Assembly (NCBI GenBank): GCA_015227615.1
Contig: JAALGZ010000006.1
Span: 1 to 64,000 of the forward strand
Direction: 5' to 3'
DNA from: Labyrinthula sp. Ha
Taxonomy: Eukaryota; Sar; Bigyra; Labyrinthulida; Labyrinthulaceae
Length of the DNA stretch: 64,000 bases
Made by a program: the position numbers and the translations under genes
Notes under the pieces: model-generated
Seen by the model: only the letters and a program-made list of their open reading frames with translations
Told to the model about the DNA's origin: nothing
The model's database searches: none
In this document: one piece after another, positions 1 through 64,000 of the stretch
Layout: each line of letters starts with the position of its first letter
Position numbering within the stretch: position 1 is the first letter of the stretch

Positions 1-3000
1 AGTCTTCTGCAAGATGTTTTGGATGTGGGAAGAAAGGGCATTACCGCTCTGAGTGTCCGGAAAAGAATTCGAAGAAAGGAAAAGAATCTGGAGAAAAACC
101 TAGAAAAAATCAAAGAGAAGAAGCTTGGATGTGTGCAGCGAAGCTGAATGAGAAGCGCATTAGTTTCATTTTGGATTCTGGCGCTACACAACATGTGTGT
201 GGTGAGGGTGAACTTTTCTCAAACAAGGTTAGAATTCCTGAGCGGCAGATTTCTACTGCTAGCGGCGAGATTTGCACGGACAAAGCTGGTGATGTTAAAC
301 TTACGTTAGAAAATGGAAAATCAGTCTCTCTTTCTGGAGCACTTTATTGGCCAGGAGCACCTAGGTTGCTTTCTGTTGCTGCTTTGACAGCAAAAGGTGT
401 TGATGTGTCGTTTTCAAAGGATGTTGCAACGATCATGTCCAAGGGTAAGGTTGTTTACAAAGCTAAACGATGTGCAGATGGACTGTTCAGAGTGCATTTT
501 TTGCCAAAGGAAAAAGCAATGGTTTCGCTTGAAGTTTGGCACAACCGACTAAACCACTGCAGTGAGGATCGATTGGTTAGAAGTGTCTCTAGTCTTGTCA
601 AGAAGGATGCGAAGCTTGGCTCCAGATCTACTTGTGTTGGATGCATGAAGGGGAAATTACATCGTGTAAGGATTCCCAAAGTTAGCAAGTTTCCCACAGA
701 GAGGAAATTGCTGGAACTTTTAGTTGCAGACACAGTTGGACCTTACGACATGTCGATTGATCGCAAGAGTAGAGCTTTAGTTGTCACTGATGCTAGGTCG
801 CAATTTCAGTGGAGTTTTCCTTTTGGTAAGAAAAGTGAAGTAGTTGCGCTGATGGTTGCTCACTTGAGTCAATTAGACAGAGTGTTTCCAGGCCAGGTTC
901 AATTTTTAAGAACAGACAATGGAACGGAGTTTTGCAATGAAGGTCTTGATGGTTTTTTGAGTAAAAAAGGAATCAAACACCAGGTAACAGTTGCGTACGA
1001 ACATGAACAGAATGGTCGTGCAGAGAACTCTAATCGTATTCTGTTGGAAAACACAAGAAGTTTGATTAAACAGGCAGGTCTTAGTAGAGGTTTTTGGTCA
1101 TTTGCAATGAAATGTGCAACCCATGCTTACAATTTTACGAAACTTTCGCGAGAGGACATTTCTCCTTGGGAGCTTTTGTACGGCGTCAAACCGCCTTTGG
1201 AAAAGCTTAGAATCTTTGGAGTCGTTGGTTTTGCTCACGTACATCGCGAAAACAGGCGTAAGTTAGATGACACTGCAACAAAGGTAATGTTCCTAGGCTA
1301 CGGTGAAAATTTCGATGGGTACATTGTCAGAGATGTTACAAGCGGAAGAATTTTTGCTACAAGAAGTTTCTTCTGTGATGAACAAAAGTTTTTGGATTCC
1401 AAGAGTACGTTGCTTGGTGCAACGGGGGAGCAGGAAGAGTCTTTAAGTGAATTCTTTGCCCCAAGAAGAACTTTGGAAGAGGCCGAAACTTTTGATGACG
1501 ATGTAAGTGAGTTTAGTGTTCAACAGTCACTAAACAGACCACAAGCTCCTGTGGTCAGTAACCCGGAGCACGAAGTTGAACCTGAGACAGCAGAACTTTA
1601 CGACACGCCACTGTCAGAAGAGTCTGAGGATGTTTTCTCAGAGCCTGTTGAAGAAAACGATGAAGGAAGTGAAACTTCTGACTCACCAATTGCAAGTCGA
1701 CTTCGTTCAAGTGTTAGAGTTCCAGAGCGTTTTAAAGAAACGCTGACTTCACTTAGACCAGGAAACCAACCTGGATCATCACAGGCACTGCTTGCGATCC
1801 CATCTGTCATTGCTCAAGCTAAGCTCCAAGGAAATTTGAAGAAGGGTTTCAAGTCGTACAAAGAAGCTTTAGCATCTAATGATGAGTGGGAAAAGTCCTA
1901 CTTAGATGAGATTTCAAAACTTGAGAAGCAGGGTGAGCTGAAAATTGTACCAAGAAGAAAAGAAATGAGATGCATTCCTTTTAGAGAAGTTCTTACAGAA
2001 AAGATTGACAATATTTCTGGAGCTGTGAAGCGCAAAGTTAGGTTAGCAGCTAGAGGTGATCTTCAGTTTGATCGACCAGAAAATTGTTACAGCCCAGCAG
2101 CTGGTGCGCTAGAGCTTCGCTTGTTCATTTGTTTGGCAAAAGGTTTTGGGTGGTACGTTAAGCAAGGTGATTGTCCAAGTGCTTACTTGAATGGTAGAAT
2201 GGATGAACCAGTTTACTTGCTACTTCCCAATGGTCACCCTAGAAAAACTAAAGCTAATGACATGGTCTATGAATGTTGGGCTAGCTTGTATGGCTTAGCC
2301 ATTGCTGGACAAGTTTGGTACTGGAAATTTGTTGATGTTGTTAAACATTTTGGTTTGAAACCATCTGCGAGATGTCCTTCTTTGTTTTCTTGTGAGAAGG
2401 ATGGTGCTTCTTTGTGGTTAGTACTCTACGTTGATGATTTTTTGATTGGATCAAAGGATTTGCGTTTGATGGCGCTTTGTGAAGTTTTCTTGTTGGAGAA
2501 ATTCAAAGTGAAATGCACTAGTGAAGTAAACAAGTTTGTTGGACTTCAATTAATGCGAGGAAAGTCAGGCGTTGCGATTCATCAGGATGAAAAAATCCAT
2601 GACATGGGTACAAGGTACAGAATCACTAAGTTTCCAAGTAAACCGATGATTGAGAATCTAAAGTGGGATGAGAAATCAGTTGCTTTAGATGACATCAAAC
2701 CTCTTCAAAAGTTGTTTGGTGAGCTCAATTATCTGAGTACAATGTCAAGACCAGACATCAGTTACGCTGTTAATCGAATTGCTAGAAGACTTCATGATGG
2801 TACAAAGGAAGTGTACAGAAGAGCAAAGTCAATTCTTGCGTACCTTTGTGGTACAAGTGACTTGGGCTTGGTCATGAAGCGTTTTTCAGGTAGCTCAAAG
2901 CTAGAGCTTTTCTGTGATGCTAGTTTTGCAGACGACAAACTCGAGAAATTTAGAAGTACTGGAGGTTTTTTAATCTTTCTTAATGGTGGGTTGATTCATT

Positions 3001-3811
3001 GGAAATCAAAGAAAATTAAGATGGTTTGTACTTCTACAGCACAAAGTGAGTACTTGTCACTTTACGCAGGTGCGAAAGAAGTCATGTTTGTTGCAAGATT
3101 GCTTGAGGATTTCTTTGGAATGAAGACTTGGCCGATTAATGTTTACGTTGACAATCAAGCGGTTCTTAATGTAATTGATCGCGCAGCACCAAGTGACATG
3201 AACAAGCACATGGCAACAAAGTACTATGCACTTCAACAGTGGACTCAAGAAGGATTGTTGGAACTTGAGTATGTGGCTTCGAAGTTAAACTTGTCAGATA
3301 TTATGACAAAAGTAAGTGGAGACTTCGTCCCTATGAGGAATAAACTTCTTCATCCACGGGGGAGTGTTGGAAATTAACAACTTCGTTAATTTCAGAAAAG
3401 ATAGATTTTCATTTTGTGCATATTTTGGGTAACGTCCCGGTTGGTTCATTTGGACGTTTTGTTACTTCTTATTCAGAACTTCTTCCCGGTGAGAAGTTGA
3501 CGTTGAAATTGTTTAGAAAGAGTTTCCCTGTGCCCGGTCGCCATGTTGGCTTTAACTCCTCGGTAGAACTTCTTCCCAGCCAGTTTGTGTAGGAAGTTAA
3601 GTTCTTGAGAGTCTGAGTTGTAACAGGTAGCAGAATAACTTCTGTGATTTCCTGTGTTTACAGTTAGGGTTTGTGAAACTGGTTACTCCGTCTGGTAGGT
3701 TCCCAGCTGTGAAAGGATCTGACGGAGGCGTCACTTCAGCCGTGATTAGTTCGATACAGTTTTTAGTTTTTAATGGTTAATTAAGAAAAAAAAGAGCTTT
3801 CCGTTAAACAG
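1..3811 (+). mobile_element. Ty1/copia LTR retrotransposon, 5' end outside window
   Basis: Old virus-like element of the Ty1/copia (Pseudoviridae) family. Parts in order: a Gag CCHC zinc knuckle at about 18-62 (CFGCGKKGHYRSEC), an aspartic protease with DSGA near 175-186, a GAG-pre-integrase H/C zinc region near 530-650, an integrase core with DNGTEF near 915, a reverse transcriptase with YVDD near 2430, an RNase H beginning FCDAS near 2910, then a 3' LTR. The order protease-integrase-RT-RNase H defines copia. Gag and Pol share one reading frame that is already open at base 1, so the 5' LTR and most of Gag lie upstream of the window. The visible part looks whole, with no breaks seen. It is richer in G+C than its surroundings. 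Age cannot be judged because only one LTR is present. Confidence 0.95.
3365..3811 (+). repeat. 3' LTR of the copia element (inferred ends)
   Basis: The LTR is placed from TGTTGGAAATTAAC, directly after a G-rich polypurine tract (GGGGGAG at 3357-3363), to a terminal TTAACA-type end at 3811. The ends are TGTT...AACA, as expected for copia LTRs. The partner LTR is not in the window, so the right boundary is an inference. Confidence 0.6.
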
Positions 3812-12999: not shown

Positions 13000-13776
13000 T
13001 CAAATTTCCAACCAATTTCCTTCACTTTCAACTTCAAAAACTTTGGTTTCTAAATAATGTTTCTTTATTAAATCATGAACAAATCTTTTAACTTTTTTCC
13101 TTCTTCTCAACCCTATCAAATATCTACAGACACCAATCACTGCAACAAGAAAACTAATTCCAAAAAATAACCAGCTTAGGAAAGTAATACCAGCTTCTGT
13201 GAAAAACCATTCAGCCTCTTGCTCAGATACCTCTGAACTCGATGGACTTTGTGTTTCTAACACATCATCTTCAAATTTAATAGGTGATTTCGATGGAGAT
13301 CTACTTGGTTCATAGGTTTCTATATTAGAAGATATATTGACTTCATTTTCATACACTTCAAACTCCAAAATCTCTGGAATTCCAGATGCGGAAAAAATGA
13401 CAAAAGTTACTTCTTCCACTGTAACTTGTTCAAAATTAACAAACTCTCCTACTCCAGTACCTGAAGTGAATACCAAAAGTCCAGTTAGGTTTGCAAGAAC
13501 CCAGTCTTGTATTGTTCCTTCTGATCCGGGTGTTTCAATTATCCTAAATGAAGAAATTGTTTGAGGATTTTCTATCCAGTTGATAGAAACAAAACTTTCA
13601 ATGATTAAAGGAGACCAAAATGAAGTTAAATTCCCATCAAGCACGTTGTTAAAGGCTGTTCCATTGGCTTGAGAAGATCCAGTTGCCCGAGCTCCGTTCA
13701 ATAGACTTAAATTGACTTCATTACTGGATAGAAGAGAAAAAAGAAGAAACTGAAGAGTAAGTAAATGAAGAATCAT
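13000..13776 (-). CDS. Type I membrane protein, discoidin-like ectodomain (copy A)
   Basis: A 258-residue protein of a four-member local family (A-D). Residues 1-18 form a signal peptide. Residues 20-145 look like an F5/8C (discoidin)/galactose-binding-like beta-sandwich: NEVNLSLLNGA, FWSP, SFRIIETPGSEGTIQDW and FEVYENE are shared with the other copies. A short Ser/Pro linker (155-185, PSRSPSKSP) follows, then one transmembrane helix (about 197-221) with a basic stop-transfer stretch and a short cytoplasmic tail. The likely place is the cell surface, with the ectodomain outside. Unlike copies B and D it has almost no Pro/Thr repeat stalk and lacks the tyrosine-containing tail motif. It ends in TGA. 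The F5/8C assignment is from pattern; ligand unknown. Confidence 0.8.
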   Translation of the reverse strand: MILHLLTLQFLLFSLLSSNEVNLSLLNGARATGSSQANGTAFNNVLDGNLTSFWSPLIIESFVSINWIENPQTISSFRIIETPGSEGTIQDWVLANLTGLLVFTSGTGVGEFVNFEQVTVEEVTFVIFSASGIPEILEFEVYENEVNISSNIETYEPSRSPSKSPIKFEDDVLETQSPSSSEVSEQEAEWFFTEAGITFLSWLFFGISFLVAVIGVCRYLIGLRRRKKVKRFVHDLIKKHYLETKVFEVESEGNWLEI

Positions 13777-19690: not shown

Positions 19691-20689
19691 TTAAAAGTCA
19701 ACTGAATATTTTCTAGTATTTCTTGAATCATAAGATCCCAACGCTGAGGAATATGGTTTAGAAAAATTTGCATATTCCAGCTCAGTATCTGGTCCAGCTG
19801 AAGAGGTTAATAAATAATGTTTTCTTATAACCTCTTCCCTTTCCTTTCTTAATCTTTTTCTTTTACTTCTACCTTTAAAATATCTAGTTATCCCACTCAC
19901 CGCAATAATTGTGCTACATCCCAAAAAACCTAGACTGAAGAAAAACACAGTCAGCTCTGTAAGAAATCCATCTTTCTCTTGTAACGCTTCATCTGACGCA
20001 GTTGGACTTCTTTTTTCTCCAAATACTGTTGGAGATTGACTTGGTGAATCTGATGGAGATTCAGTTGGTATAAATGTAGGAGAAAATGTCGGATTAAAGC
20101 TTGGTTGCATGGTTGGCGAAGATGAAGGTTTTCCTGTAGGACTTGAAGTAGGAGAAGCGGATGGACTTATAGTTGGTGAGACAGAAGGTCCAGTCGTAGG
20201 TGTAAAAGACGGAGATGTAGTTGGTAACTCTGTAGGTGAGTTTGTAGATGTACTCATTTGGTTTTCATAAGTTTCAAATTCTGCAATCTGTGGAACTCCA
20301 CTAGCCGATAGAATATAGAAACTGATTTTTTCTAGAATAATAGAGTCGAAATTAATAAAGTCACCAACTTCTGTACCTGTGGTTATAGTTACACCCTCAT
20401 CGTGATCTTCAAGTAACCAGTTTTGAATAGTGCCTTCGGTTCCTGATGATTCGAGGATCCGTATCGACGAGACGGTTTGAGCATTTCCCCTCCATTTCAC
20501 AGCAATTCTCCCGGTATTCTCTGTTGGTGACCAAAAAGTGTTTAGATCATCATCACAAACGTCATTAAAAGCCGTATCGGTTGCTTTTGTTGAACCATCT
20601 GCATCTGCACCTTCAATTAAGCTCAAATTGATTTCATTTCCAGTGACTTTACGCGTTATTATGAGTAGCACGATTGATACACACTTCAT
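19691..20689 (-). CDS. Type I membrane protein, discoidin-like with Pro/Thr stalk (copy B)
   Basis: A 332-residue protein. Residues 1-17 form a signal peptide. The discoidin-like domain spans about 18-143 (FWSPTENTGRIAVKWRGNAQ, GTIQNW, AEFETYE). A stalk of SPT/PS repeats (about 150-221, e.g. SPTISPSASPTSSPTGKPSS) matches the Pro/Thr/Ser stalks of secreted and surface proteins in stramenopiles and is probably O-glycosylated (inference). One transmembrane helix (246-270) is followed by a strongly basic stretch (GRSKRKRLRKER) and a cytoplasmic tail holding EYANFSKPYSS and DSRNTRKY. The ectodomain is clearly closer to copy D than to copy A. The likely role is a surface adhesin or receptor; no catalytic motif is visible. 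Confidence 0.85.
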   Translation of the reverse strand: MKCVSIVLLIITRKVTGNEINLSLIEGADADGSTKATDTAFNDVCDDDLNTFWSPTENTGRIAVKWRGNAQTVSSIRILESSGTEGTIQNWLLEDHDEGVTITTGTEVGDFINFDSIILEKISFYILSASGVPQIAEFETYENQMSTSTNSPTELPTTSPSFTPTTGPSVSPTISPSASPTSSPTGKPSSSPTMQPSFNPTFSPTFIPTESPSDSPSQSPTVFGEKRSPTASDEALQEKDGFLTELTVFFFSLGFLGCSTIIAVSGITRYFKGRSKRKRLRKEREEVIRKHYLLTSSAGPDTELEYANFSKPYSSALGSYDSRNTRKYSVDF

Positions 20690-28615: not shown

Positions 28616-29641
28616 TTATATTTGATATCCTCTAACTTGTCTTGAATTATATGAGTCACCCATTGACACATAAGGCCAATAAGAGTTGTCATATTCTACT
28701 CCAGCAAAAGGAGAGCGACCAACTAATATATCTGGTCTCCTTGATATTAACTCTGTTCTTCTCTCAAGTATTATTTTTCTTAATCGTCTTTTTCTACTTC
28801 CAATCAAATACTTTGTTATTCCAACAAATGCAGTAATTGTAGCACATCCCAGAAAAAACAAACAGAGAAAAAAAACATCCGTCTCTGTAAAAAAACCATC
28901 AACCGCTTGAATAGGTTCCTCTGAACTAGATGGACTTCTTGTTTGTTCAATATCAGTTGGAGATCTACTTGGTGATGCAGATGGAGATTGACTTGGTTGA
29001 AAACTTGGAAAAAAAGTTGGTCTTGAAGTTGGATTATAAGTTGGTTTTGAAGTTGGATTATGAGTTGGTAGAAATGAAGGGTTTGATGTAGGATGTACAG
29101 TTGGTATAGAAGAAGGAGTTCTTGATGGAGAGTTGCTTGGTTGAAATGTAGGTCTTTCAGATGGTTCCTCACTAGGATGGAATGTAGGTAAGCTTGTTGG
29201 ATTAAACACTTGTTGCTCATAAACTTCAAATTCAGCAACTTGTGGAATTCCAGTAGCTGAAAGAACATAAAAACTAACTTTTTCAAGTGTAATTGAGTCA
29301 AAGTTTATAAAATATCCAACTCCTGTACCTGTAATTAATGCATAATCTTCATCATGATCCTCAACTAACCAATCTTGAATTGTTCCTTCTGTTCCAGGAA
29401 CTTCAATTATTCGTACACAAGAAATAGTTTGTGCATTTCCTCTCCATTTGACTCCAATTCTACCTGTTTTTTCAACTGGTGACCAATATGAGAATAAATC
29501 TTCATCACGAACTCTATTATAAGATGTTCCATCTGCTTTATCTGAACCATCTGCTCCAGCACTGCTAATCGTACTCAAATTGATTCCAGTGGAGAATATA
29601 TTGGGTAGTAAGAGAAAGAAGTGTATTGGTAGATATTTCAT
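28616..29641 (-). CDS. Type I membrane protein, discoidin-like with Pro/Thr stalk (copy D)
   Basis: A 341-residue protein. Signal peptide 1-18; discoidin-like domain about 19-143 (YWSPVEKTGRIGVKWRGNAQ, GTIQDW, AEFEVYE). The longest stalk of the family spans about 147-229, with repeats such as NPTSKPTYNPTSRPTF. A transmembrane helix lies at about 255-280, followed by basic GSRKRRLRK. The cytoplasmic tail has VEYDNSYWPY and SYNSRQVRGYQI, aligning with the tails of B and C. Two of its other frames are open by chance over the stalk because of the repetitive codons; they are not genes. The stalk differs in length between B and D by repeat number, typical of fast-evolving surface proteins. Ligand and partners unknown. 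Confidence 0.85.
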   Translation of the reverse strand: MKYLPIHFFLLLPNIFSTGINLSTISSAGADGSDKADGTSYNRVRDEDLFSYWSPVEKTGRIGVKWRGNAQTISCVRIIEVPGTEGTIQDWLVEDHDEDYALITGTGVGYFINFDSITLEKVSFYVLSATGIPQVAEFEVYEQQVFNPTSLPTFHPSEEPSERPTFQPSNSPSRTPSSIPTVHPTSNPSFLPTHNPTSKPTYNPTSRPTFFPSFQPSQSPSASPSRSPTDIEQTRSPSSSEEPIQAVDGFFTETDVFFLCLFFLGCATITAFVGITKYLIGSRKRRLRKIILERRTELISRRPDILVGRSPFAGVEYDNSYWPYVSMGDSYNSRQVRGYQI

Positions 29642-53478: not shown

Positions 53479-54649
53479 TGGGCTGGAATAAATTCTTTCT
53501 GCCTTGTTTGAATTTTGTGACTAATTTTCTTTCCCAAATATATGGTAATGCTGTATTGATTTTGTTTTGTTGAAGTTGTAAAGTAATCGTTACCAAACTT
53601 AATTACGTGAAAAGAGGCTTGGCTTTAACCTGGTTATCTTATGTCAAGCAAAGGTCTTGACACTTCCCAAAACAATTATCTAATATTCTTTTACCTAATC
53701 TACAATATTTCACTTCCTTCTTGTTTATCTACGAGATGTTCTTTCCTCCCAAGACGAGACCGGCTCATCCCTAAAGTTAACACAATTATCAGGATTTTCT
53801 GTAATATACTACGTTTCGACAGCATATGTGCTACATAGGTGCAAAAATTATGTGCCCATTTGGCCTTACCAAACTAGTAGTAATCAGAGAAAACATAGAA
53901 AGCAAGTTTAGCTTAAGAACTAGTAAACATAAATATTACGAAAATCCTCAAATTTTTTAATCCTGATATAATGCTAGTAATTATGAAGACACAAACAAGA
54001 AAGAAAAAACCAAACAATTATCACATCAAAGATATTTTGATATTTCTTGAATAGTTCAGAAGCACTTTGCACCGACCTTTCAGCATTTGTACTCCTCGAG
54101 TGACGCTGTCCAAATTCACTAGTACCCATGTTACCTAGTTCAAGAAATAAGAGTAGTCCAAAAGTTTTTAAATATAGTCTTTTATTTTATTTTCATGATT
54201 CCAAACGTATTATAAGTTTCCTCAAGTACTCTATTAAGATACTTGGTCAATCTTATCATCTGCGCGTTGATAATGGATCAGCAAACTCATTATATTCAAC
54301 TAAGTAATCATACGAGAGTAATTGGATAATTTGAAGTTTGGTTGTGATGACTTATATAATATATGTTCTTAATACTGGCAGGGCTCTTTTCAGGACTAAT
54401 TATTTTTTACTGAGATATTAATAATTGCTGGATTGGCTACGTGCATACTGAGTTTGTGGTGTGGATTTTAGGATTAAAGTGTTTTACCCTTAGGTGCTCA
54501 TACATTTTTGCAGTTACATGAGAATATCTTACATATGAGTTAGATAATAAGGGATTCTAAATAATCTCCGGGATGAGTACTTTGTTGCTGTAGCATTGTA
54601 ATCGCTTAAAAAGCCTATTGCTTATTTTTTTTACAATTGGTTTTGGTAC
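53479..54649. other. Intergenic, no gene seen
   Basis: AT-rich spacer between the PH-filamin promoter and the Ty3/gypsy element. A 65-codon open stretch at 53641-53838 has no family character. The last four bases, GTAC (54646-54649), are the likely target-site duplication of the retroelement. Confidence 0.5.
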
Positions 54650-54855
54650 TAGTAGTATTATATGTATACTAATAATACTACGTTATGTAAAATAGGCTAC
54701 TTTTGGACGTTGAAATAGTCCTGTTAGATTGAAATATATTAAGCGTTAATACAATCAATTACGAATACAAACGAACGACACATAAGAGTTATAAAATATA
54801 TAAAAAGGATTAACTGGCCAGAGAAAAGTTATTCAACACCGTGGAATAACGACTA
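54650..54855 (+). repeat. 5' LTR of the Ty3/gypsy element
   Basis: 206 bp, matching 61503-61708 except at two positions. The ends are TAGT...ACTA (a 4-bp inverted repeat) rather than the usual TG...CA. A TATAAAATATATAAAAAGG stretch inside may serve as promoter. Directly after the LTR lies a 12-bp palindrome, TTGAAGCTTCAA, where the primer-binding site is expected. Confidence 0.95.
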
Positions 54856-54879
54856 TTGAAGCTTCAAGTCGTGACAAGT

Positions 54880-55870
54880 GGATTCACCCGATAAAACAAC
54901 TTCTTACGAACTAGGACCTGACAATAAGCCGCGGACGTATTACTTTGAGGACGGAGTTAAGAAGTATATTTTACCAGAAGTTATGACACCTACCTCCGAT
55001 AAGACAGCGAAGAAAACAGCCAGTACTCCTGATGCAATCAATGCTGAGCTAGTCGAAGCACTACGTAGACTTGGATCTTCATCTATTCGCCCCCCTATAT
55101 TGGAAATCCTTACTACTCTTGATCGTGAACCGCTATTGAACTTCATCATCAGATTCAAGCGCGCTCGTCAGAAGGACCCTTCACTTGAAATATCTGAGTG
55201 GCTAGGAGGTACAATTTTGTACAAGATTCAGTCACATGAGATAGATTTAGATAACACTGGTGAGGTCCTCAAGCATCTGGAGTAAATTGAGAAAATGAGA
55301 GCCGAGAGCTTATTTGCCCACAGCATCGGATGTCTTTCAAGTGAACTCAAGTGGCCCACGAAAACTGAAAGTGGTACCGAATCTATTAGAAAATTTATTA
55401 TACAAGCGAAGGAGATACTTGGACCAGAAAGAAGCCTTAACCCTCAATCTCACAAGGCTGTCATCAAGAATATAGTTAAGAAGCTACCTGGTTACTTTCA
55501 GATAAATGATACGAATTATTTGGATCTTTTTCCGAAAGTATCAACTTTAGATGATTTCGCGCAGAGCCTGGAGTTATTGGCACCTATTGAGGATGTAGAG
55601 ATAAGAAAGAGAAGAAACGGCAGTGCACTTACTTTACACACTGCAAACCTCTCAGCTAACCTTGATCACACGCCATCACCATCACCCACGAGCCAGAACC
55701 TTACACTAATATCCGAGAACCCGGTAGAGAGAGTTATTTTAGCCCTAAACAGACTGGAAACGAAGCTCGACAATATTAGCAGATGTCTTAATTGTGGAGC
55801 AGCAGATCATTTTATAGCTAATTGGCCGGAACAGAGACAAGTGGGATCGATGTCTACACCGCAGAGATAA
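54880..55870 (+). mobile_element. Gag region of the Ty3/gypsy element
   Basis: Part of the fossil element. No sequence motif is recognisable until the end, where a cysteine/histidine knuckle-like segment (CLNCGAADHF) precedes the protease. Assignment is from position and this motif. Confidence 0.7.
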
Positions 55871-55979
55871 TCCTACACGCAAGCTAGTAGCCAGAATACT
55901 AATCCACGTTCAACGAGAAGGCAACCCAACAGGAAAACGATGGCGCAAAGTAAGATGCCGGTCATGCAGCTGAGAGCTG

Positions 55980-58300
55980 ATCCAGTGGAGTTTCTGGAAC
56001 TGATGGATGGTCCGAACTGGGTTAAGATTAAAGGTATTCTAGACAGTGGAGCAGCCAAGACGATAGAAAACGTCAGACACCACAAGAGGTTTTGCTGCAT
56101 GCTTCATCCGGTACAATCTAACCTTAGTGTTCAGCTAGCGAAATATGAGCCCATTCCCATTGCTCTTATTGGAGATGCGGAGATAAGAGTGAAAATCGAT
56201 GGTGATGAGCCGGTTTATCTTGGAAGGGTTCGGATATTCATGCTTGATGATGAGAGTAGTTTTTCGGAACTTTATATTGGAAAAGAAACTTTATTTGATG
56301 TAGGTGCGCTTCCAAAGCACTCACTGAGGAAGATGCCAAGCTGGCAGAGGAATTTACTTGCACCGTACTCAATGGCGAGAAGGGATAACCATCCAAGGCA
56401 ACGTATAAATTGAAATATAGGCACCAAAGGAAATGAGAACCCTGCGAAAATGCCCCTTTTAAGAAATTCTATCTCATTCCCTACAGAAGATATAAAATTT
56501 AACTTGAAGCACATGGATATATCGAAGTTTTACGATGCCGATTCTGATTTAATACAATCCATCTTGAAGGGTAATATTTACTACTCGAAAAAACAGAAGG
56601 AAAAGCTGGCCCTTAACACTTCAGATATAAACTTCGTTACAAAGGAAATAGATTTCACATCCTCTGGCGATACGGTACCAATGGATGAAGCTGCTAGCAT
56701 CTTACAGCTACCATCAGATGCACCGGTGCAGCTTAGTAGCCCGTATTCAGGAATGATGAGAGAGGACCTCCCCAGTATAACATATTTTGGAGGGGATGGT
56801 CCTAACCTTGAAGTCAGAGAGGAACAGGAACAGATGAAGAGTTATCTCGAGAAGCGGCTGAAGGAGTCGGAGCTGATCACGGAAACGGAACGCAAAATGG
56901 TACTGGACACCTGCCTTACTCACATATCTTCCTTTGGAGTGCATCAAGGAACTGGTAAAGTTAGTCGTCTCACTCCTGTACCTTGTCACCTGGTACCTAA
57001 CACACTGCCAGGGATATTTGTGAAGCCTAGGCCCATTGGTCAGAAAGAAGAGATATGGCTCAAGAATATGATCGACGAGTTGATTGAAGCCAAGATCCTG
57101 AAGCGTGTATCGGATCCTGTCTACTCGGTTCCGATACACATCGTGCCAAAGAAGTCGGATGATCCTGCAAAGCAATTCAGGTTAGTAGTGGACATGAGAA
57201 GAATTAACGACTTCACTATACGGACTTCTTTGAACCTTCCTTTTCTGGAACAGCAATTGTGGAGAACAAGCAGGGCAAGATATTTCGCCTGTTTAGATGT
57301 GATGTCTGGTTTTGACTACTTACCCATAGAAGAGGAATCCAAGAAATTCTTTAACATGGCCACACCTTGGGGTGCTAGTTACGAATTCCAGGGAACAGTT
57401 CAGGGCTGGAAGAATAGCCCCCTTTATTTTCAGAATCGTGTTTTTAGAGAAGTTTTAGAACCACTGGGATACATGAACCAGATAGACTTTCTTGTGGCAT
57501 GATTCAATGGGTTGATGACGTCTTGTTATATGCCAAGAACCTTTCAGATTTGAATAAGATGTTAGCCGAAGTCTTAAGTTCTTTCGAAAAAGGAGCAGTC
57601 CGATTGAGTGTCAAGAAATGCATCATAGTGGCCAAGAGGATAAAATATTGTGGTAGGTGGTTAGAAGGTGGTACATATTCCTTTGAAAATAGTTATTACA
57701 AGTCGATACTAAAGATGTCCAGACCAGTATTTCAACATGAACTGGCGTCTGTGCTTTACGTTTGCAACTGGCTGTGCAGTACAATACATAATTTGGCAAA
57801 GTTAAGAGACAAGTTTTCAAAAGCGGTGAAGCTGGGAATCAAGCAGACGAAATTGAAGCGCTTGAAGATCCCGATTGGATGGACAGAGGAGCTGAACGAT
57901 AACTGGGAGAAATTCAAGGAAGAAATATCGAGAGCCATGAAGAGGAACCTGTACCACTATAACCCTGAGCTGAGGCTTAACATCTTTACGGATGCTTCAG
58001 ATGGATATTGGTCAGGATTTTTAATGCAGACTGAAGTTAGGGAGGACAGCAAGCCAATAATTTACCGAAAACATTTACCTGTTATTTTACTTAGTGGATC
58101 ATTCATGGGAGGTCAGATCAAGTGGCATATTTCACAGAAGGAGATTTACCCGATACTTATTTTATTGAAACGAGCTGACTACATGATCCTTGGGCATCCG
58201 ACACCGGTCAAAGCTTACACTGATCACCGTAACCTTATTTACCTCATTAGACCGAATTGGAATGAAAAGCGGTCATACATTTCACGGATGAGTCGCTGGG
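55980..58300 (+). mobile_element. Protease, reverse transcriptase and RNase H of the Ty3/gypsy element
   Basis: Part of the fossil element. The protease is marked by ILDSGAAKT. The RT has FRLVVDMRRINDFT, ACLDVMSGF and a QWVDDVLLYAKN active-site block. RNase H begins FTDASDGYWSGF and includes TDHRNL. All are standard Ty3/gypsy signatures in the standard order. Confidence 0.9.
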
Positions 58301-58599
58301 CGTTGATTTTCTAGGACAATAATATTATTTTTGAACACATCAGAGGTGAAGACAATATATTAGCGGATATCATCTCGAGATGGGGAAACCCAGAATCTGT
58401 AAGGGGCGATGAGAAACTGATCCTTCGTTCCATGGAGGTTATATCATTGAACGCAATGAGATTGAATAAAAGAAGAGCAGAGAACAATGCAGCTCTCAAG
58501 ACATATTTAGAAAAGATGGATGTGGAAAGATTGAGCATTATGAATCCCTTTTATTCAGGTAAATGGAAGAGGCTGACAGAAGCTGAAATATTTAAGGAA

Positions 58600-59640
58600 C
58601 CGAAGAAGAGTGAACCAGATCTTAGCGTACTTAAGAGGAACGGACCGCTCATTGTTATTCCTGAGAGTCTGAGTCACAACATTATTGTCCACAATCACAT
58701 TTACATGGGACATCCTTCTCTTTCTAGCGAGCTTAAAGAATTGAAAAGGAGGTATGGAATTAAGCTGCCAGGTGGTTTTGACTTGGAAAAGATATTGAAA
58801 GAGCTACACAGAAGATGCATTCATTGTGTTAGAATCCCTGCCCTAATACACACACCTTATCATGAGACGCCATTAGGGGATAAGCGAGGTGCCATTCTTC
58901 GGGCAGATTTCCTCCACATTAATGCAAAGGGTTATGTTTTGGTTCTCATGGACGACGCTACAAGGAAATTTTCTTTAAGATATTACAAGAAATGCACAGC
59001 AAGGGTGGTACTGCTTTCTATATTAGAGTGGCATTCTTGACTGGAGTTGAGACCTTCATTTTTATTAATTACCGACAAGGGATTTCATTTTGCTAATATT
59101 ATTTTACAGGAGATGGAACAGTGGCTAAGGTACAGCCACTCCTATGCTGTCTCATACGCTCCCTGGACTAATGGAGGAATAGAAGGCTCTAATGTTCGCA
59201 TCTTGAGAATCCTCAGATCGGTGGCAAGCGAGCTGCATTTGTCTAGTGGATCGTGGCCAGAGGTTTTACCTTATGTTCAGACGGTGATAAATATGTCGAG
59301 AACAAGAAGAAACATGGACATGACGCCTAAAGAATTATATTTAGGACTTAGTCAAGAGGAGCAAAATAATGATGAAGATTTTCTCATCCAGCGTCATTTA
59401 TTTATTAACCCAGATGGTACAAGCAAAATAATGGGAGCAAGAAACCCGTCTAATATAGTTACCACAGCGAGAGAGATCAACAAGTCTATTGAGGATAAAC
59501 AATCAGCAGTCTATTCTTTTGTAGCTACTTTAAGGAAAAAAAAGAATGATCGATACAATGAGAGATTTTCCAGAAAAGTAATCCAGTACAATCTCGGAGA
59601 CTGGGTTATGGTAAGTAGCGCTAATACACACTGAGCGATG
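58600..59640 (+). mobile_element. Integrase of the Ty3/gypsy element
   Basis: Part of the fossil element. An H-H-C-C zinc region (HNHIYMGHPS ... RRCIHCVR) is followed by the catalytic core, with ADFLHINAKGYVLVLMDDA, ITDKGFHF and YAPWTNGGIEGSN. Confidence 0.85.
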
Positions 59641-59819
59641 CTGAAACACAAATTGAAATGGCAGGGACCATTCCTTATAGTAAGAACTACATCAGCGAAT
59701 GTCTATCTGGCTCGTAGTTTACTAGGAGACGAGAAGGTAGTACACGTCTCCAGATTGTGGTGGTACTAAGGTCCAAGCTACAGGCCAACTCCAGAAGTTA
59801 TATCTCACTTTAGACAAGA

Positions 59820-61485
59820 TTATGGAGTGTTAGAAGTCGACGAGATCAAGGATATTGAGTTAACGTCGGAAGGCTATTTTTTATTAGTTTCATGGCTTGG
59901 ATTTGAACGACATGAAGATAGTTGGGAACCTTTAGAGATACTAGCTATTGATGTAAAAGACACGGTAGAAAACTTTCTGCTACTGGATGGAGATTATAAG
60001 AAACCGCTAAGGGATGCAGCAATGGAGGTCGCGAAGTCAACCTGGAAAGAGGATGAGGTTATTCTAAGATTAGATGCAGTAGAATTCCTGGCTGAAACCC
60101 CATCATTGAGCCAGAAGTGGCTTCCAGTTGAGAAAGATATCCTACGTCAGTGCATCCAGGTATTTGGAGTCGGAAATTATTCGAAAATACACTCTGGAAA
60201 CTATTTGCCTTACAAGACGACACAGCAGCTATATACCCAGACACAACGATTATTGGGTAAGCAGAGCATCATGGAGTATTCAACACTTCGCTTAGATAGC
60301 TGGAGAGTAGCTAAAGACAACTTCAAACGCTACGGAGTTCCATACCATGTGGAAAGAAGCAAGATCATTAGCCGAGTTGAATCGCTGACCCGAAGATTTT
60401 TTAATTTGTTTAGGTACACGAAGAATAAACCGAAGTTAAGGATTGAGGAGATATTTTATTTTAGATGTGAGGATCAACCTGAACTTAGAAAGGATAAGTT
60501 GTTATTTCTACGATCAGTTAGGGATGGTAAAGATCTTGCACGTTTTCGACCAATTATTAACTTTAGTGATGTAGCGAAGGAATTATTTAGATTAGAAGCT
60601 ATGGTCAAATCAGATGAAGAATCAGAAGTGTTATTCAAACGTTTTTCGAAGCATTGCTCTGTAGATGTAGAAGAGTGGCAGTATCAAGTTTTCTGCGATC
60701 CTTTGTTTTTGGTCCCGGTGGAATACAAGTTTGAGGATCAAAAGTGTGAAGTTAAATGGGACAAGGAAGAGAACCAGATTATTTTCAAGTTTAAATCAAG
60801 GTCTTGGATGACGCCGTTTTTTAGCTATGGAAGTTTACCTATTTATGCTGAACTTTCTAATGAAACAGATTTTTTCGACATTTTGAGAATTAATGACTGT
60901 TATTTCGAAGCAGTAGTTATTGATCCACCTTGGAAACTGGCGAACAACCTTCCTGTGAGAGGCCCGAGTTTAGACTATGAACAAATGGAGTTTGATGAAA
61001 TACCTTTCGATAGAATTTTGAAGACTGTTATTAATGGATTTGCTTTTATATGGTCCATACAAGCCTACGAACAGAGATTGAGACAATACTTACATGACAA
61101 AGGGTATTCCGTTGCTGAGACAATCTCATGGGTCAAGACTAGTAGTAGTGGGAATCTTTTGCCATCTATTGAACCTTTTATGAGTCTAGCAAAAGAAACG
61201 TGTTTCATGATTCCTATTGATGAGACGTCAGCTAAACAAGTTCGTTCTCATTTTGGTTTGGACGTTATTTTCGCTGAAAGGAGAGAACAATCTCGGAAAC
61301 CTCTGGATATTCATGAAGTATTGGAGGATGTTTTTTCTATGGAAGCCAGATTTTTAGAAGTTTTTGGTCGTGTTTGGAATTCAAGACCGCGTTGGGCGAC
61401 AGTTGGTAATGAATTAGATGAGAAACTTGCTTTGAGCAATCATGGTGCTTCAAGGATATCTCAATTTAAGAAGTTTTCTTTGTAA
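59820..61485 (+). mobile_element. Chromodomain, Myb/SANT-like and MT-A70 methyltransferase part
   Basis: C-terminal cargo of the fossil element. Three domains can be read: a chromodomain (about 59830-59980: YFLLVSWLGFERHEDSWEPL), a Myb/SANT-like helix-turn-helix (about 60100-60270: KWLPVEKDILRQCIQVFGVG), and an MT-A70 domain (about 60870-61440). The last has DPPW at 60922-60933, FAFIWSIQAYEQRL, ETISWVKTSSSG, DVIFAERREQSRKP and LEVFGRVWNSRPRWATVGNE. The latter blocks match the METTL3/ciliate MTA1 style ('AE.R..S.KP...' and 'ELFGR..N..P.W...GNQ'). MT-A70 enzymes methylate adenine N6 in RNA or DNA. A role in marking element DNA or RNA is inference. About 600 bases between the Myb-like and MT-A70 domains encode nothing I recognise. 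Confidence 0.85.
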
Positions 61486-61502
61486 TAACATCTTGGGAGC
61501 AA

Positions 61503-61708
61503 TAGTAGTATTATATGTATACTAATAATACTACGTTATGTAAGATAGGTTACTTTTGGACGTTGAAATAGTCCTGTTAGATTGAAATATATTAAGCGTT
61601 AATACAATCAATTACGAATACAAACGAACGACACATAAGAGTTATAAAATATATAAAAAGGATTAACTGGCCAGAGAAAAGTTATTCAACACCGTGGAAT
61701 AACGACTA
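61503..61708 (+). repeat. 3' LTR of the Ty3/gypsy element
   Basis: 206 bp, two differences from the 5' LTR, both near the left end. Followed directly by GTAC (61709-61712), repeating the four bases before the 5' LTR. A modest purine run (TTGGGAGCAA) precedes it. Confidence 0.95.
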
Positions 61709-64000
61709 GTACATACTTAATTTTTAATCAAATGGTAATTATACTAAGAGCTTTATCTTTACTAAAATATTAGTCAATATCTGTTTTGGCAGCTATAAAC
61801 TCTGCAAAACGCCTAGTATGTAATTGTATCCGGTTAATACTCCCCTATATTACCAGTTTTGTATATTTTCAGCTGAATCTGCTATTACACACGATTTGTA
61901 ACCAAAAAAGAAATTTCCTTACAGGTATAATATTTTAACTGTGTAAAAAATGGATCAAAATGGTTCTACAAGAAGCACGACCGATTGCTATACTTACAAT
62001 TTTTATGATCACGTAGAGAGTATCTGCCCTCTCAAAAAGATGTCTATGTGAAGTCGAAGTACTTTTGGTTATAAGATTAACTACCACGATGAACAAATCA
62101 AGTTTTTTATAGTTATTATGCATTATAGTCAGGGTTAAATATTTGGAATATTTGAATTAATAGCTTTAGCTCCTAAAAACACTCTCTGAATTCCATTTCT
62201 ATTCTTCCGCTTAAGAGATGTGTATATTTATAGTCAAAGTGTTGGTAAACCCAGATACAGTTTCTTATATGTTGTGGAAGAGAGTTATGATCATAATCAT
62301 TACTATCGGCTCCTAACAATTAGGGAAAACGCTTCTTATTTTAAGAAATTTTTCAGATTAAGTTATCCTTATTACGAGTATGTATGAAAATAAATTAGCT
62401 GGTTTTACGCAACTAATTAATATGAATATTAATATATTTCATTGTATTTCATTTTAGTCAAACAACATCATATTTTTCGTTTGCTTTTATTTCATTTTTC
62501 ACAGCTGTAGTTAGAATAGATGCAATCTTCCTAGTTACACACTTTATGTTAGAATGGCTTTCGTCCCCTTTCCTTCTTGTTGACTATTGACTATTATGAA
62601 ATGGTACTCATTGTTGTTTGGTTTATATTTTTAGTGGTTTTGTTAAAAGCTTAAGAAAATACAGTTCGTTGAAACTCCTATTCTCTATTTCCGGTACTCT
62701 TAGATACAAAACGATACTTCTTCATGCGAAAATGGTAATGAGCATCAAAATGCTTATTTCTCGCTGTGCAATATCCATCTATCATCCTGTTATGGGTTCC
62801 TTGGCTATATACTTTTATTTCTGCTTCATACTTTAAATCGGGTTCCTCGAGTATCAATGTGCTTCACTTTCTATATGTAGCCACTACTGCAAGTTTAACA
62901 TATCCAGATTCCTTGTCATTTTAGCGAAAATTTTCTATTTCCTCCATTTAGAGGTACTAGAATCACTATTCAACAAAACGTATTTACCCCTCGCTGATTC
63001 ATTTATTTTATAGTTACAAAACTATTATCAGCATAAATTCGTAGCTTCTTTCTCGCTGCACCCACCTCAAGGAGACATGATCCTCCTAATAAGGAGGAAA
63101 AACCTAGTGTGTTCTTTGGTTTTTGCAAGAATGAACTTCTCGGCTTAGTTAGGTATCGTAAAAGATAAATAAATGTAAACAGTTTCTAGATTCTAAGAGT
63201 AGTGGTAAAGTCGCTGATTGTTCCAAGTATATGGTGGTAGCATTTTCTAATGCTTTGAACTCAATGTTCTGATCTAAACGTGAATGTGGCATAAAGATCG
63301 AGATGCCCATATTCTACTTTGATATAAGTGAAATTATTCGTTGATAACTTAGGGGATAATTGTTTGGGCTCCTGTAAATATTTATATTAGATTCCAGTAA
63401 CTTTATATCCGAGATAGTTGTACCTTTCTGATTTGAAATGAAAATCAAATATTTGAGCCAAAAGTCTACATTATTCCCTAGCACTATTTCCTTGGCTCCA
63501 GATAATGTGTCCCGGCTGGTTGAAATTAGTATTTCTTCTACATACATCTTCGTAACTCCTGTCCTATTTGAGAGTAACATTTATCTCGGTTATGAGATGG
63601 GTTGATCATCAGGCAATAAATACTTGAATATGGTTATAGTTAAACCTAAAACTACTTGCAATTTCTGAAACACTGTTATTCCCTACCTTGGTTTCGTTTA
63701 TTTTGCTGCCAACATTAAAATATTTTAGGTTTCGGCTTCATCTTCTGGTTAGGTAATTTTTTTTGCTATTTTCGAAACTATTTTCCTCTTAAGTAAGGCC
63801 TAAAAGATCCACCTTTATTATTTTTAAATTGCTGCTCTTGTAGTGATGGTATTTATTTCCATACATGACACAACGTTTATTTTCAGTCAGAGAAAAATTT
63901 CTGCGAAAATCGTATCCACAACAACTGAAACACTTCAAACTAATTTTATTTCTCGTTTAAAATTTTTTCTTTGCCTAAGTCCTATCATGTTCTGTTGCTC
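61709..64000. other. Intergenic, no gene seen
   Basis: About 2.3 kb of AT-rich DNA to the window end. Open stretches at 61935-62123, 62618-62836 and 63314-63580 lack convincing motifs; the last has a faint YVxxILI resemblance to copia reverse transcriptase that I do not trust. Confidence 0.5.

Follow-up and report, generated by a model that had tools for sequence, protein, structure and literature searches.

A Ty3/gypsy Element with a Methyltransferase Tail

The DNA analysed here is a 64,000-nt stretch of contig JAALGZ010000006.1 from Labyrinthula sp. Ha, referred to as the window, and coordinates are positions within it. A Ty3/gypsy-type element with long terminal repeats (LTRs) spans positions 54650-61708, and its 3' part holds a chromodomain, a DNA-binding module like Tetrahymena P1/AMTP1 and an MT-A70 methyltransferase domain. 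The original prediction, made from the letters of the DNA alone, had described matching LTRs around such a tail. The repeats are indeed there, 206 nt each and 99% identical, and both ends of the element are bordered by GTAC, a 4-bp target-site duplication (TSD). Considering also the other copies described below, the element is almost certainly a damaged member of one branch within a large, old group of chromodomain retrotransposons of Ty3/gypsy type, in which pol ends in a single-chain P1-like and MTA1/AMT1-like tail. Its features are as follows, all on the forward strand except the strandless duplications.

54646-54649, no strand: target-site duplication GTAC, left copy (direct reading, TSD scan)
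54650-54855, +: 5' LTR, 206 nt
54878-55870, +: gag-like region, two open pieces in one frame (by position; no Pfam gag match)
55940-56413, +: aspartic protease piece (translation shows GILDSGAAKT; unmatched by Pfam protease profiles)
56450-57502, +: reverse transcriptase, first part (RVT_1, 48.0 bits)
57499-58314, +: end of reverse transcriptase and RNase H, in another frame (RT_RNaseH, 54.3 bits)
58432-59634, +: integrase region, two open pieces (weak rve match; second piece without Pfam match)
59770-61485, +: open 3' frame with chromodomain, P1-like module, helical linker and MT-A70 (open reading frame (ORF) reading, Pfam)
59833-59952, +: chromodomain (Pfam Chromo, residues 3-42, and fold)
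60103-60339, +: DNA-binding module of Myb (homeobox-like) type, resembling P1/AMTP1 (phmmer match covers Tetrahymena P1 residues 20-98)
60562-60696, +: long helix (AlphaFold, residues 246-290) positioned like the N-terminal helix of MTA1, which binds p1 and p2
60904-61413, +: MT-A70 domain (Pfam, residues 360-529)
60922-60933, +: DPPW motif, residues 366-369, inside the MT-A70 domain
61503-61708, +: 3' LTR (LTR alignment)
61709-61712, no strand: target-site duplication GTAC, right copy (direct reading, TSD scan)

The gag-pol of this copy carries seven in-frame stops and one frame change upstream of the tail, and a stop separates the integrase from the tail. The tail frame contains no stop, as against the seven upstream, and we claim no significance for its preservation. 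The integrase had been described as a standard gypsy one, which fits eight other copies, where rve matched with E-values (E) of 2e-5 to 5e-10 (three of them exceeding the curated cut-off), but fits the window copy poorly, as the match to its integrase core is weak (E 0.26). An Rfam scan of the window gave no match at gathering thresholds.

A Tail Resembling Two Subunits of the Same Complex

The tail frame is open from 59770; the start at 59827 is a GTG picked by the ORF lister, and Pfam was run on 59827-61485 (552 aa), the translation to which tail residue numbers refer. The MT-A70 domain with a DPPW motif that had been proposed within 59820-61485 was recovered by its Pfam profile at 74.4 bits (E 1.4e-20, cut-off 23.9). 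The calls of the two preceding domains were weak, with Chromo at 21.6 bits and Myb (residues 96-135) at 18.8 bits, each under its own cut-off. The chromodomain call, already part of the original prediction, is upheld because Chromo matched after the integrase in all 21 tails compared, the window copy included (E 0.05 or better), and because the AlphaFold model has a three-strand-plus-helix unit at that place. The Myb call is upheld by a match to Tetrahymena P1 (E 3.4e-11) and by a helical unit in the model. The module had been called Myb/SANT-like. A Myb-type DNA-binding module it is, but the generic identity was dropped, since phmmer, the genome search with P1 (which recovers 60106-60339) and alignments all show it to be specifically like P1/AMTP1. 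The RKN...INTG stretch of P1 is present in element L022 and when five elements are aligned with the two P1-like proteins of the host; the P1 match of the window copy does not include it.

Among solved MT-A70 proteins, MTA1 is the closest by sequence comparison in all three element branches tested, and the structural Z-score of the tail model is 22.1 for MTA1 versus 21.1 for METTL3. Structural alignments of the model to MTA1 begin at model residue 250, 253 or 266, and the window copy keeps the equivalents of MTA1 D209, S332, R357, N360, N370 and E371. Judged by its sequence, the tail is thus a fusion of two partners of one complex, P1-like and MTA1/AMT1-like, placed behind an integrase. Across 32 element loci, the catalytic motif reads DPPW in 19, DPAW in 7, DPPY in 3, and NPPW, DLPF and DAPW in 1 each. 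D209, R357 and N360 are each kept in 31 of these loci and S332 in 26.

A Large Family of Elements in the Labyrinthula Genome

At least 261 MT-A70 places were found on 86 contigs. This total includes the host AMT1 and decayed places, and it merges four genome searches in each of which the best 150 places were scored, the counts being lower bounds. Among the best 150 of 379 RNase H candidates, 103 were followed on their own strand by an MT-A70 place at a distance of 1.5-6 kb, and only 3 had one upstream. The best 150 P1 places gave a similar picture, with MT-A70 0.3-2.5 kb downstream in 124 and upstream in 1. Conversely, P1 or RNase H lay upstream of at least 163 of the 261 MT-A70 places among the matches listed. 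The other 98, which had neither upstream among the matches listed, may include elements; L018 and L019 (locus labels are ours) lack such linkage among the matches listed, yet they read out as elements. The eleven best-scoring RNase H places had no MT-A70 downstream among the matches listed, and therefore ordinary gypsy elements seem to be present as well.

Twenty elements were fetched, picked for long frames from 150 MT-A70 places and thus not a random sample. In all twenty, one frame holds reverse transcriptase/RNase H, integrase, chromodomain and MT-A70 in this order, the longest such frame having 2,660 codons. Pfam confirmed the order of reverse transcriptase, RNase H and integrase in eight representative copies, and the tables of these eight contained rve and PF05063 instead of any tyrosine recombinase. 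An LTR pair was found in 18 of the 20 (none within the stretch for L019 and L023; the LTRs of L012 and L022 are cut by the end of the fetched stretch). At the aligner's borders, 8 of 19 LTR pairs had an exact 4-bp target-site duplication (window, L009, L010, L013, L016, L020, L024 and L028), whereas the remaining pairs had a duplication at shifted borders only, or none. The MT-A70 profile matched all 21 tails and Pfam Myb only 8, while a P1 match stood upstream of MT-A70 in at least 17 of the 21 among the matches listed (L012, L018, L019 and L025 had none there). The proposal that a gypsy element had captured both an adenine methyltransferase and a DNA-binding module is thus supported by continuous pol frames, most of them between LTRs. 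Neither of the two refuting outcomes named with the original prediction occurred: the MT-A70 profile match is strong, and the host AMT1 is a gene of its own.

A protein database of 5.8 billion was searched by shared words, a method by which distant relatives are missed. The first search gave 3 matches, all from EukProt, the second gave 10 (8 EukProt, 2 plant), and the third gave 3, namely 2 from EukProt and P0014, an unnamed 268-aa protein. Two EukProt matches, P0001 and P0004, are identical to the Labyrinthula genome over the query, and we assume the same source for the others. No relatives were found in viral contigs (140 pattern matches checked).

Host AMT1 and P1-Like Genes

The genome also holds host counterparts of both partners. 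A search with a piece of MTA1 returned one outlier, C91:220758, with 58% identity and 232.7 bits, whereas the highest-scoring element reached 141.5 bits. This outlier, which we take for the host AMT1, stays open over 327 codons, and its match to MTA1 has E 3.7e-73; it has no P1 or RNase H place upstream among the matches listed, and 3.5 kb around the gene were read. The search with P1 likewise returned two outliers, C1:1284467 (99.0 bits) and C100:136003 (97.8 bits), the next place scoring 70.9, and neither has MT-A70 downstream among the matches listed. Their P1/AMTP1-like frames comprise 384 and 227 codons (L043, 1336-2490; L044, 1192-1875). The two genes share 46% identity over their aligned part. 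A host METTL14 was sought with a plant sequence that we take to be METTL14-type; the best match was AMT1 (34%), with no METTL14-like outlier among the best 150 places, in a search that could miss an intron-split gene.

Evolution of the Methyltransferase Part

To follow the methyltransferase (MT) domain together with its element, pairwise distances among the 20 elements were compared with those of reverse transcriptase (RT) and integrase (IN). The correlations were 0.88 for MT versus RT, 0.84 for MT versus IN and 0.88 for RT versus IN, and none of 2,000 permutations reached values as high. As MT distances track those of RT and IN, the methyltransferase has for the most part travelled with its element rather than being regained per family. 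Averaged over the 20 elements, MT-domain identity is only 32%, which shows that the association of domain and element is old. In a tree of MT domains without P0014, the elements fall on one side of a branch with a support of 69/89; this is weak support, and the reference set for the trees comprised two METTL14-type sequences from plants, two of AMT1 and the distant P0014, here left out. A single capture of the methyltransferase by the element group seems likely.

Close pairs for which rates were measured show purifying selection on the MT domain. The ratio of nonsynonymous to synonymous substitution rates (dN/dS) was 0.05-0.46 in 20 close pairs, which are not independent, as sequences are shared among them and some have very low dS; a 21st pair was saturated. 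In the single pair in which all three domains were measured, dN/dS was 0.07 for MT, 0.06 for RT and 0.05 for IN.

Possible Function of the Tail

The explanation that we consider best as a whole combines this anatomy with self-marking of element DNA by N6-methyladenine (6mA), and we hold it with modest confidence. Its mechanistic core, an element-borne writer that would put 6mA on its own double-stranded DNA, could about equally well be right or wrong. The tail would be translated as part of Gag-Pol and accompany the integrase, and the chromodomain and P1 module would keep it on chromatin or on fresh double-stranded cDNA. There the MT-A70 domain, perhaps aided by host p2 and MTA9/AMT7, would methylate adenines to 6mA, which known relatives do at ApT. 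Because cDNA carries no methylation when it is new, the first marks could come from a writer encoded by the element, and host AMT1 would keep them after replication. A new insertion would thereby come to resemble permissive, transcribed chromatin. In AMT1 species, 6mA goes with transcriptionally permissive regions, and AMT1 prefers ApT, with binding to hemimethylated sites suggested (PMC12695648). A bolder version, in which a self-contained writer seeds the element's cDNA and insertions, host AMT1 maintains the marks and the group has thus held a heritable pass against silencing throughout its radiation, is tentative and rather doubtful. If it is true, a parasite exploits the host's activating DNA mark against silencing.

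Several observations weigh against self-marking. Robust activity of the MTA1 complex (MTA1c) needs all four subunits (PMC9174199), and transposable elements are not enriched in 6mA in the surveyed AMT1 species (PMC12695648). The ApT content of the LTRs shows no special pattern or enrichment (17 elements, Wilcoxon p 0.58). All six checked positions are as in MTA1 in only 14 of the 32 element loci, and one whole branch has DPAW in place of DPPW. In the MT tree, the element clade breaks when P0014 is included (three changes). The DPAW branch comprises L002, L003, L005, L006, L007, L009 and L021, and close pairs within it have low dN/dS.

The main rival to self-marking is the steering of integration, with the chromodomain and P1 module tethering the integrase to a chromatin type (e.g., 6mA-rich or marked by histone H3 lysine 4 trimethylation, H3K4me3) and catalysis secondary. 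Chromodomain-directed integration was reportedly described by Gao in 2008. The tail sits directly behind the integrase and includes a chromodomain in all 21 elements, which fits a targeting device, as do the altered catalytic motifs of some branches. Yet a tether needs no methyl-donor pocket, and the near-complete retention of D209, R357 and N360 together with purifying selection on the MT domain in the branches measured disfavours a mere tether; we regard this explanation as unlikely, though the strongest of the alternatives. Methylation of element RNA (N6-methyladenosine, m6A) in the manner of METTL3, aiding export, translation or packaging, draws on the fold shared with METTL3 and its similar structural score. 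It is improbable, as the sequence is nearer to MTA1 than to METTL3 in the three branches tested, the fused partner resembles the DNA-binding P1, and MTA1c methylates double-stranded DNA but acts weakly or not at all on RNA and single-stranded DNA (PMC9174199). An enzyme closest to the DNA-type MTA1/AMT1 and joined to a P1-like partner therefore favours DNA over RNA as the substrate.

A methyltransferase acting against the host would flood or divert the host 6mA system, for example by competing for p2 or MTA9, with catalysis lost in some branches. The host AMT1 and P1-like genes and the DPAW motif in 7 of 32 loci would suit such a role, but with DPPW retained in 19 it appears slightly less probable still than methylation of RNA. 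Finally, the window copy taken alone, with a stop between integrase and tail, could be read as an artefact or as an adjoining host MT-A70 gene caught by chance between two LTRs. This reading is rejected, and what chance it keeps is very slight: other copies carry MT-A70 within continuous pol frames, the host AMT1 lies elsewhere, and the number of MT-A70 places and their position downstream rather than upstream of RNase H (103 versus 3 of 150) are not those of a chance neighbour.

Relation to Known Systems

KnitGypsy-Dnmt3 and retrotransposons of Symbiodinium likewise have a eukaryotic DNA methyltransferase in their proteins, with evidence of purifying selection, and KnitGypsy, like the Labyrinthula elements, belongs to the Gypsy type and encodes its enzyme in pol (de Mendoza 2018, PMC5890265). 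The enzyme of these known elements is a C5-cytosine DNA methyltransferase (DNMT), whereas the Labyrinthula elements carry an N6-adenine-type MT-A70, closest to AMT1, and a P1-like subunit. DIRS1-like elements also have a putative N6-adenine methyltransferase in pol (PMC3266345, PMC5890265). They differ in their tyrosine recombinase and bacterial-type Dam-like domain from the Labyrinthula elements, which have LTRs, a DDE-type integrase and MT-A70. Orchid Ty3/Gypsy elements have also gained an adenine-methylation enzyme, an AlkB-type m6A RNA demethylase domain (PMC9289625); this is an eraser in an additional ORF, unlike the predicted writer in pol described here. Tetrahymena MTA1c (MTA1/AMT1, MTA9, p1 and p2) shares the MT-A70 DPPW motif, the N-terminal helix and the P1 homeobox-like (Myb) module (PMC9852454, PMC9174199). 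It consists of four separate host proteins, whereas the elements, known from sequence, unite two of them in one chain with a chromodomain and integrase.

Searches of the open-licence PubMed Central (PMC) literature listed no retrotransposon with an MT-A70/AMT1 writer, and an earlier mention elsewhere is possible. Nor did they turn up any uptake of the eukaryotic 6mA writer along with the partner that binds DNA. MT-A70 families have been described as relatively static after the last eukaryotic common ancestor (PMC12695648). The single genome studied here, by contrast, yields at least 261 MT-A70 places, and divergent AMT1-like domains on mobile elements account for many of these. Elements with and without a writer in the same genome make protection or activation of mobile DNA by 6mA directly testable.

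Variation in Protease and Gag, and Neighbouring Genes

An unusual gene order was seen in 7 of the 20 fetched elements (L009, L010, L011, L021, L022, L023 and L028), where a DSGA protease motif lies between the P1 module and MT-A70 and a search for DSGA upstream of the reverse transcriptase was blank. Seven other fetched elements have DSGA upstream of the reverse transcriptase and six have none at either place, L014 among these six having an upstream protease by Pfam. The model of the displaced segment (predicted local distance difference test score, pLDDT, 66) matched retropepsins best, all with E above 1e-3, including human T-cell leukaemia virus 1 (HTLV-1) protease at E 1.2e-3 and feline immunodeficiency virus (FIV) protease 3fiv_A at E 2.5e-3 and a template modelling (TM) score of 0.68 (target length).

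In L013, L015, L018, L019 and L025, gag and pol share a frame, with one TAG between them that in every case precedes GA, a pattern suggestive of programmed readthrough. The single gag/pol stop of L009 is TGA.

Elsewhere in the window, a pol frame of more than 1,100 codons at 3-3377 runs past the window start and is, as we judge from its translation, presumably of Ty1/copia type. Three related proteins with similar N-terminal parts are encoded at 13000-13776, 19691-20689 and 28616-29641. The latter two also have long PTxSPS-like repeats, which are common in stramenopiles.
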